This document shows positions 3,582-37,732 of a DNA stretch of 38,356 bases, one piece after another; the stretch's first letter is position 1; every line of letters starts with the position of its first letter. The translations under genes and the position numbers were made by a program. The notes under the pieces were generated by a model. That model searched no databases and was not told the origin of the DNA. It saw only the letters and a list, made by a program, of their open reading frames with translations. The stretch comes from Candidatus Nomurabacteria bacterium GW2011_GWA1_36_15. Lineage in GTDB: Bacteria > Patescibacteriota > Minisyncoccia > Phycocordibacterales > UBA9973. The DNA lies in assembly GCA_000991415.1 (NCBI GenBank), contig LBRM01000011.1:1-38356 (forward strand). The letters run 5' to 3'.

Positions 3582-3680
3582 AAAAAAAATTTGAAAACAA
3601 AAATTTTAAGAGTCGTGGGTTCCCTGTCCTTATGACTCCGAGGGCGAAGGCTCAGAAATTTTTCGTTTTCAAATTTTTTT
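3582..3680 (-). repeat. long-stem hairpin repeat, copy 1 (49-base conserved core)
   Basis: The arms at 3582-3606 and 3656-3680 pair over about 24 bp with one extra base in the right arm. The 49-base core between them (3607-3655, containing GTCGTGGGT and CTCCGAGGGCGAAGGCTCAG) recurs at 37658-37706 with only three differences, yet the arms of the two copies are unrelated. On the minus strand it begins inside the map stop codon and ends in a run of U, so it probably also ends map transcription. Function and mode of spread are unknown. Confidence 0.8.
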
Positions 3681-15584: not shown

Positions 15585-16244
15585 TTACCCTCTTGATTCT
15601 AAAAATTTTATACTTTCTTTTGGATTTTCTATTAAAAGATATTGACATTTTAAAACATCCAGCGGATTTAAGTTTTTAAGAAATATTATCTGAAGCTGTG
15701 GTAGATTTCTGAAACTTTTTTCTGTTTTTTCATTTCGTTCATATAAAGCGGTTAAAACTCTGGGTTTCTTTGAACTTGCAAGCGGTTTAAAACCAGAAGC
15801 TTTCGAAAGATTTTTCATAACTTCTACTGCTTTCTTAGTTTTCACTTCAGGTAATGAGAGCGAATCAACAAAAAGTATTTCACTATCTTTCATTTTTTTA
15901 GAAAGAACAGAAAATAAAGCTTGGACACGCATTTTTTTTGAAATTTTTCTCTTATAGTTTTTTTCAGAAAGCGGACCATGGGTGACTCCTCCGCCAACCC
16001 AGATAGGACTTCTGGACGACCCATGACGAGCACGTCCTGTTCCCTTTTGTTTCCATGGTTTTTTACCTCCACCCCTTACTTCTCCACGATCTTTTGTGTC
16101 GGCGGTGCCTGCACGTTTATTGGAACGCATTCCTTCTATCACTTGATGCACTAAATCCGCGCGCCACTTAGCGGCAAAAATCTTGGGAGGCAAAGTGATC
16201 GTCCCCGCTGAAATTCCTTTTTGGTTGTATATTTTTGCTTCCAT
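15585..16244 (-). CDS. rplD: 50S ribosomal protein uL4
   Basis: A 219-residue uL4: KWRADLVHQVIEGMRSNKRAGTADTKDRGEVRGGGKKPWKQKGTGRARHGSSRSPIWVGGGVTHGP contains the long tunnel loop typical of the family. In E. coli this protein also represses the S10 operon through its leader. Here a 14-bp inverted repeat overlaps its own start codon (16243-16256 with 16311-16324). The start is AUG 16244. Confidence 0.97.
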   Translation of the reverse strand: MEAKIYNQKGISAGTITLPPKIFAAKWRADLVHQVIEGMRSNKRAGTADTKDRGEVRGGGKKPWKQKGTGRARHGSSRSPIWVGGGVTHGPLSEKNYKRKISKKMRVQALFSVLSKKMKDSEILFVDSLSLPEVKTKKAVEVMKNLSKASGFKPLASSKKPRVLTALYERNEKTEKSFRNLPQLQIIFLKNLNPLDVLKCQYLLIENPKESIKFLESRG

Positions 16245-16324
16245 CCCGTTAGAAATCTATTTTATTAATGTTAACTTCATATTTTTTAACCCGTTTGTCA
16301 ATTTTTTTTAATTTCTAACGGGAT
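16243..16324 (-). promoter_or_regulatory. 14-bp inverted repeat over the rplD start
   Basis: ATTTCTAACGGGAT (minus strand, 16256-16243) is the exact reverse complement of the sequence at 16324-16311, with a 54-base loop between. In mRNA the stem would bury the rplD start codon and the bases just before it. Candidate translation switch; a repeat-derived palindrome is the alternative. Confidence 0.6.
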
Positions 16325-23706: not shown

Positions 23707-24369
23707 TTAATCTAAAATAAGTTCCTCTTCCATTTCTTTAGCTCCACTAGTTTCAACAAAATTTTTATATTCTTTTTTATCTTTAAACTGTTCTAAAACA
23801 ATTTCAGTTTTTAAAACTTTATCCCAGCGATTTTCTTCAATATAGTCTTGATAACTTGACCAAGGGAAAAGATCTTCTTTTTTATACCATTCACTTAATT
23901 CTCTTGGATTTAAATGTATATAAGCAGAAAGATACAAGAGTTGTTTATCATCTTCAACATGGACTGCCTTATAAGGACCTCCAAAAAGATGTCCAGAAAT
24001 ATCATAACGAGTATTAAAATATTTTGTATAAGAATTTAGAACACGTTGCATGTATTTACCCATTCCTCCCTCTTTGATTTCTTTTACTATAAGATGAAAA
24101 TGGTTAGGCATTAAAACAAAACCAGTTAATTCTACAAATCTTTCTTCAGTTATTTGATTTTTTATATCATTATCAATGTTAAACACCCGATGTTTGACAT
24201 AAAAGAAAATAATCCTAGAAATTTGAGGAAAATTATTTTCTGCTTGAAAATATAAAATAAGAAAAAGAAATCTAATTCTATCTCTATCATCTTTAAAAAT
24301 TATTTTTTTACCAACTCCTCTATTGTAAATATGGTAATATTCTCCAACTGAAATATTTTCTCTATTCAT
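23707..24369 (-). CDS. REP-associated tyrosine transposase (RAYT, Y1/HUH family)
   Basis: A 220-residue single-strand transposase of the IS200/IS605-related RAYT group. YYHIYNRGVGKKIIF at the start, the HUH motif MPNHFHLIV near residue 90, and catalytic tyrosine in RVLNSYTKYFN near 115 are visible; SAYIHLNPREL follows. Such enzymes nick and join DNA at REP palindromes. Three copies of one 23-base palindrome mark this locus: outside each end and inside the gene, where it encodes VKHRVFNI near residue 62. Whether the enzyme with this insert is active is unknown, but all catalytic residues remain. Neighbours on both sides show no family link. Confidence 0.9.
   Translation of the reverse strand: MNRENISVGEYYHIYNRGVGKKIIFKDDRDRIRFLFLILYFQAENNFPQISRIIFFYVKHRVFNIDNDIKNQITEERFVELTGFVLMPNHFHLIVKEIKEGGMGKYMQRVLNSYTKYFNTRYDISGHLFGGPYKAVHVEDDKQLLYLSAYIHLNPRELSEWYKKEDLFPWSSYQDYIEENRWDKVLKTEIVLEQFKDKKEYKNFVETSGAKEMEEELILD
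24177..24199. repeat. REP-like palindrome, copy 2, inside the transposase gene
   Basis: TGTTAAACACCCGATGTTTGACA, one change from copy 1 (which becomes a G-T pair). It is read in frame as part of KHRVFN in the protein. Confidence 0.85.
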
Positions 24370-37632: not shown

Positions 37633-37732
37633 AAAAATTATAAAAATTAAAAGATTTTAAGAGTCGTGGGTCCCCTGTCTTTATGGCTCCGAGGGCGAAG
37701 GCTCAGAAATCTTTTGAATTTTTATAATTTTT
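37633..37732 (-). repeat. long-stem hairpin repeat, copy 2 (49-base conserved core)
   Basis: Arms 37633-37657 and 37707-37732 pair over 25 bp with one extra base on the right, as in copy 1. The core 37658-37706 matches the copy-1 core at 46 of 49 positions, while the arms share nothing with copy 1 beyond AT-richness. The right arm ends in the stop codon of the broken adenosyltransferase gene. The stretch 37588-37632 shows nothing else. Confidence 0.8.

Follow-up and report, generated by a model that had tools for sequence, protein, structure and literature searches.

A palindromic repeat with a near-invariant core and copy-specific stems in Candidatus Nomurabacteria

How can a repeat keep its centre nearly constant when the arms around this centre differ from copy to copy and still pair with each other? 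The question is raised by two copies of a hairpin element in the window, i.e., the whole analyzed stretch of 38,356 nucleotides from Candidatus Nomurabacteria bacterium GW2011_GWA1_36_15. Copy 1 (3583..3680, minus strand), a whole hairpin of ~98 bp, lies directly 3′ of map (methionine aminopeptidase). Its constant core (3610..3653, minus strand) reads GAGCCTTCGCCCTCGGAGTCATAAGGACAGGGAACCCACGACTC on the minus strand, and the core and its surroundings were matched by the covariance model at 3597-3665 with an E-value of 1.9e-22. In gene orientation, the left arm of this copy (3654..3680, minus strand) overlaps the map stop codon and consists of ~9 conserved inner bp and a private outer part, and the right arm (3583..3609, minus strand) is followed by T-rich sequence. 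Copy 2 (37633..37732, minus strand) lies directly 3′ of a cobalamin adenosyltransferase gene. Its core is located at 37661..37704, its left arm at 37705..37732, with an unpaired C at the junction of inner and outer stem, and its right arm at 37633..37660 (all minus strand, arms in gene orientation). The first-pass annotation had described two copies of a shared block with three differences, flanked by arms that pair within each copy and are unrelated between the copies, with one extra base in the right arm and a start inside the stop codon of the gene upstream. All of these features were found in both copies; the extra base is in the plus-strand right arm, and the overlapped stop codon belongs to a gene on the minus strand. 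A 16-base piece of the core, searched with up to three mismatches, recovered the two copies and one weak match against 0.04 matches expected. The window repeat is not a chance match.

The architecture of the element was determined from 123 unique copies, a family set assembled from one Nomurabacteria genus. The element is a hairpin with a median length of 96 bp (5–95% range, 84–119 bp). At its tip lies a near-invariant core of 44 nt. The stem totals ~24 bp, of which the inner ~9 bp are conserved, whereas the outer arms of a copy pair with each other and not with those of other copies. In both window copies, read on the minus strand in the direction of the upstream gene, the order is outer arm, inner arm (of the AAAAATTT or AAAAGATTT type), GAG, CCTTCGCCCTCGGAG-n6-GGACAGGGRACCCACGA, CTC, inner arm, and outer arm, with GCG/CGC and GAAA/TTTC as alternatives to the core-closing GAG/CTC pairs. 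In the 123 copies, the arm pairing score was 14.7 for a copy's own arms vs 4.4 for arms swapped between copies, and 8.0 vs 1.4 for the pairing past the first 14 nt. The constant centre with private, pairing arms, initially proposed from two copies, is thus a property of the family. Identity between copies was 34% for the left outer arms and 91% for the start of the core, and the Watson-Crick share of the outer stems was ~90%. Three copies in a single genome (L019, L127, and L128 in G033) even have identical cores, with the outer arms of L019 just 11–21% identical to those of L127 and L128. In about half of the intergenic copies, a C or G of the left arm is unpaired, 8–10 bp out, at the junction of the conserved inner and the private outer stem. 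No constant base was seen outside the stem. In one copy of genome G021 (L166), a palindrome of ~20 bp (CTGCCTACCGACAGGCAGG) is nested inside the constant core, which indicates that other palindromic repeats land in the element.

In its own genome (617,508 bases, 22 contigs), exactly 18 copies were detected by BLAST, by pattern search, and by the covariance model. All 18 were full length, with no split or half copies, and the sole isolated 5′ half core among the 182 core hits of all loci was an unrelated near-match. The element was present in 18 of 36 same-genus genomes, with 1 to about 21 copies each in a patchy distribution, and was absent from 24 other genera in the sample of the order. The covariance model was also run on further genera, ~150 from the order and ~208 from the sample of the phylum, and matched none of them. 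When 84,980 species genomes were scanned with the exact core pattern, 73 stretches were obtained, nearly all of them from Candidatus Nomurabacteria or the Parcubacteria group; the few remaining ones belonged to records that are unnamed or probably mis-binned. The core search that the first-pass annotation had suggested therefore yielded 18 copies in the genome and many more in related CPR genomes. The viral contigs scanned for the core gave no match. The one match in an Rfam scan of the window was a tRNA, and the additional hits at permissive E-values came mainly from microRNA and snoRNA models, each of them far below its gathering score. In the open-access literature, as distinct from subscription literature and preprints, no description of the element in Nomurabacteria was found. 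A Y1_Tnp domain was detected in 15 of 18 core-positive vs 13 of 18 core-negative genomes of the genus, and this co-occurrence showed no clear association that would link a Y1 transposase to the element. The window itself encodes a 220-aa protein with a Y1 (IS200-like) transposase domain, RAYT-like in size (23707-24369, minus strand); five Y1 hits were found in the genome, and 40 of 60 relatives were positive.

Empty sites in relatives were compared with the occupied ones, as the first-pass annotation had proposed, and the whole hairpin was found to be absent as one unit. At flank identities of 74–93%, the core and both arms were missing and the empty sites were clean. Judged by these alignments, which are all between species and none between near-identical strains, the core and both arms (~96 bp) are shown to have been inserted as a single unit. 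For example, the empty site of copy 2 (locus L130 in G033) reads AAGTAA directly followed by AAAGTGGC, and the window reads AAATAA, the hairpin of ~100 bp, and AAAGTAGC. Conversely, the window has no copy upstream of map, where G003 carries one between a stop and a start codon. The empty site of copy 2 showed no evident target-site duplication. The AAATTT of the inner arm was also considered as a source of such a duplication and was rejected, as the AAAAGATTT/AAATCTTTT class occurs only inverted and never direct. The usual landing place is just after a stop codon. The intergenic copies lie ~30–45 nt from stop codon to core, mostly in sense orientation, and are intact. Some copies are located between divergent genes, and some orthologous sites are kept across species.

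The site 3′ of map is occupied differently in different species: by the core of the element itself (core A), by one of at least four other cores, or by nothing. Every cored copy at this site has its own long complementary arms. Own and swapped arm scores were 15.5 and 5.3 for core F, 19.8 and 8.9 for core B, 18.9 and 11.1 for core H, and 19.8 and 7.2 for core D. Four further cores in the genus thus share the private-stem design. Core B partly resembles core A, whereas F, H, and D do not, as judged by eye. The core F copies 3′ of map (L177, L180, L184, and L194; CAGGTCCTCGG..CCAGACCATT) have a variable inner hairpin in addition to variable outer arms, so that a constant internal loop is flanked by two private helices. 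Another inverted repeat of the window (16243-16324), with 14-bp arms (ATCCCGTTAGAAAT..ATTTCTAACGGGAT), lies in the intergenic gap between 16244 and 16330.

Within long ORFs, 36 of the 123 copies were found, all in frame and 34 of them in sense orientation, with the same core as the intergenic ones. The intragenic copies of the window's genome are in aspS and in the gene for an FAD-linked oxidase. The 28 element codons of aspS are missing from most orthologous genes. The AspRS with the insert retains the residues that are invariant among its relatives, and the AspRS of T. thermophilus has a short loop at the position of the insert. In the AlphaFold model, residues 54–81, which correspond to the insert, have pLDDT values <50, and the encoded peptide is predicted to form a disordered loop. 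A different in-frame insert, encoding a peptide of approximately VPTEGRGSSA (AAAGTCCCGACYGAARGTCGYGGATCCTCGGCA), occupies the same aspS loop in L056 and L064. The FAD gene has two hotspots, each of which, depending on the species, is empty or contains core A, reversed core A, another core, or a coreless palindrome. In-frame coreless palindromes, e.g., GGAGTCAGGATGTGAAGAATTCTTCACATCCTGACTCC, are present at site 1 in L107 and in L077 of the window's genome, where relatives have core B with homologous arms. Moreover, a different in-frame palindromic repeat (CTCCCC...GGGGAG / CCTCTCCTTTACAAGGAGAGGGTCGGGGTGAGG) is found at the hotspots in L078, L079, L096, L100, L102, L103, L105, and L126.

The pairing of the arms is maintained during divergence. 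Among the stem columns of 22 orthologous comparisons, 51 had changed on one side; of those changed on both sides, 20 were still paired and 3 were unpaired. Under independent change, ~1.7 compensated columns would be expected, although some of the compared pairs are phylogenetically dependent. Four compensated pairs separate G033 from G006 at FAD site 1, which lies within a reading frame. In the core and the inner stem, 50 double-change cells were counted vs 13.4 in shuffled alignments and no more than 9 in slid controls. Compensated changes in orthologous arms and covariation above controls thus bear out the maintenance of pairing suspected in the first-pass annotation. The mismatches also provide information on the folded strand. 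On the gene-sense strand, isolated mismatches of the inner stem were A.C in 33 cases and G.T in 1 case, a count that includes inherited classes, so it overstates independence and represents several events rather than 33. The outer stem had 37 A.C and 22 G.T mismatches (p=0.07). The calculated folding energy was better for the antisense strand in 116 of the 123 copies. Because an A.C mismatch in the sense strand is a G.T or G.U wobble in the other strand, and this other strand folds better, it is the antisense strand that appears to fold. The folded strand is therefore probably opposite to the mRNA of the upstream gene, either as DNA or as antisense RNA.

We then considered where arms and cores come from. 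The outer arms of orthologous copies with near-identical cores were 77% alike on average, compared to 47% for copies at other loci with equally similar cores and a background of 42–44%. This difference points either to a renewal of the arms during movement of the element or to a homogenization of cores between old hairpins. The orthologous pair L231/L150, with 96% identical arms and an 83% identical core, has the pattern expected from core exchange, and homologous arms at FAD site 1 occur both with and without core B. Similar arms were also found at different loci, namely in the L148 pair (neighboring copies of G003) and in the CCAGAAATC group, so arms may sometimes travel. The best candidate for a wholesale duplication of a hairpin within a genome, L258/L240, was in fact a segmental duplication.

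On balance, we lean towards palindromic insertion elements that form a dispersed family restricted to this genus. The whole hairpin is what is inserted at a new site, mostly behind a stop codon or in frame in a protein loop. The core and the inner stem are conserved in sequence, and the outer stem in self-complementarity alone. A putative factor acting in trans may recognize the single-stranded hairpin by its core, inner stem, and junction bulge. If this folded form is under selection or is repaired by template switching, the pairing could be preserved while the sequence of the arms drifts, and exchange or gene conversion between sites may keep the cores alike. More tentatively, the element might be a mobile hairpin of single-stranded DNA in which the core is the recognition site and selection on the stem acts solely on its pairing on one strand, with each new copy gaining or evolving its own stem. 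Several cores would then rely on common machinery and insert at a common set of sites, namely stop codons and protein loops.

The strong placement, orientation, and intactness of the intergenic copies also fit a host function. The element could be a functional structured RNA of 3′ UTRs (for protection of mRNA ends, processing, or protein binding) that is spread and kept by host selection, which we consider rather unlikely. Structured RNAs typically combine conserved loops with covarying helices, and in the element the unpaired blocks are conserved and the helices covary. The intact, mostly sense copies right after stop codons and the persistence of some orthologous sites across species agree with such an RNA. 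However, ~29% of the copies are in ORFs with the same core, the mismatches and the folding energy favor the antisense strand over the mRNA, no Rfam family matched, and the occurrence of the element in half of the genus is patchy. Intrinsic terminators, whose stems would have arisen separately around a shared tip, are the least probable reading. This reading was raised in the first-pass annotation, which saw a U-run at the end of both copies. Some T's do follow the two window copies, and the position after stop codons would suit terminators, but at least five T's in the next 8 bases were present in just 12 of the 123 copies, which argues that the family does not consist of terminators. Neither window copy coincides with a terminator-like site, other copies are located in ORFs or between divergent genes, and entire hairpins come and go as units.

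As also raised in the first-pass annotation, the insertion might copy the flanking DNA in inverted form; snap-back or template switching at an inserted core would then make new arms at each site. This would predict that copies in one genome can have identical cores but unrelated arms, as seen, and template switching can both generate and repair hairpins (PMC8794818). At FAD site 2, the conserved FDL codons at the right of L225 recur in inverted form as its left arm (GATCAAAATTC); such extension of an arm into conserved target codons may occur occasionally. With this possible exception, the evidence spoke against inverted copying, and we regard it as improbable. Neither arm was found in the flanks of the empty sites, matches of the outer arms to other local DNA numbered 3 vs 1.3 expected and did not exceed chance, and the one GC-rich arm that was tested had no second occurrence anywhere in the genome. 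In addition, fixed positions of bulges and mismatches persist, although copying of arms should erase them. This persistence likewise speaks against old hairpins at fixed sites that no longer move, with arms kept identical by template-switch conversion (concerted evolution) and cores homogenized by gene conversion. Such a mechanism is known (PMC8794818, PMC6649704), and the compensated changes at the coding FAD site 1 and the core variants shared within genomes are consistent with it. However, the patchy presence with clean empty sites requires insertion or loss, as does the fact that the same hotspots have repeatedly been taken by different cores, and we regard fixed old hairpins as quite improbable.

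The design of the element bears on how such repeats are detected. Most repeat families are recognized via a sequence common to the entire unit. Since only the tip is shared here and the stems are private, repeat finders catch short fragments of the element and miss the whole unit. If the pairing is selected, the insertion element would be encoded by its structure, and it would supply essential enzymes with additional peptides in genomes streamlined to 0.6 Mb. The spread of small palindromes in and between genes, a long-open question, would then become testable, as would the question of whether compensated changes in stems reflect selection or template switching.

Among the known systems, a classical MITE or transposon derivative was rejected, as the outer ends differ in every copy and the empty site of copy 2 gives no sign of a duplication. 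The attC sites of integrons are single-strand hairpins after genes and are recognized by their structure with extrahelical bases. Their basal boxes are conserved and their tip is variable; the element is the reverse, with a constant tip and a variable base. Similar to REP sequences with their RAYTs, the element is a short imperfect palindrome that is sometimes intragenic, and a Y1 transposase gene is present in the window and in many relatives. However, GTAG- or CGTC-tagged REPs have stems of 5–13 bp with family-level sequence and a terminal tetranucleotide tag (PMC3733652), whereas the stem of the element is ~24 bp long and private, with no GTAG or CGTC tag outside. The coding palindromes of nematomorph mitochondria occur in conserved coding regions, where both arms encode conserved protein (PMC6649704). 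They resemble the element in being in frame with arms that remain complementary, but the element has a shared core and is a dispersed insert unit. The closest kind, according to their descriptions, are the Rickettsia palindromic elements (RPE). These are dispersed palindromes of ~100–150 bp, some of them in frame in ORFs at surface positions, and different element types hold the same positions in different species (PMC3767692). As with RPE and the Wolbachia palindromic elements, our element is a dispersed palindrome of similar size and repeated within the genome, and as with RPE, it is inserted in frame into ORFs with the gene intact, as exemplified by the invariant residues kept in AspRS. The host phylum is different. 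Moreover, the arms of RPE are reported to lose identity over time (as summarized in PMC6649704), whereas the arms of the element stay paired, with compensated changes, and the outer sequence is private to each copy. In our preferred reading, the element works in the manner of an RPE, except that selection acts on the core sequence together with the pairing of the stem. Because of this difference in the behavior of the arms, we did not file the element as an RPE. The preservation of pairing while the stem sequence itself is not preserved is unusual for a mobile-looking element.
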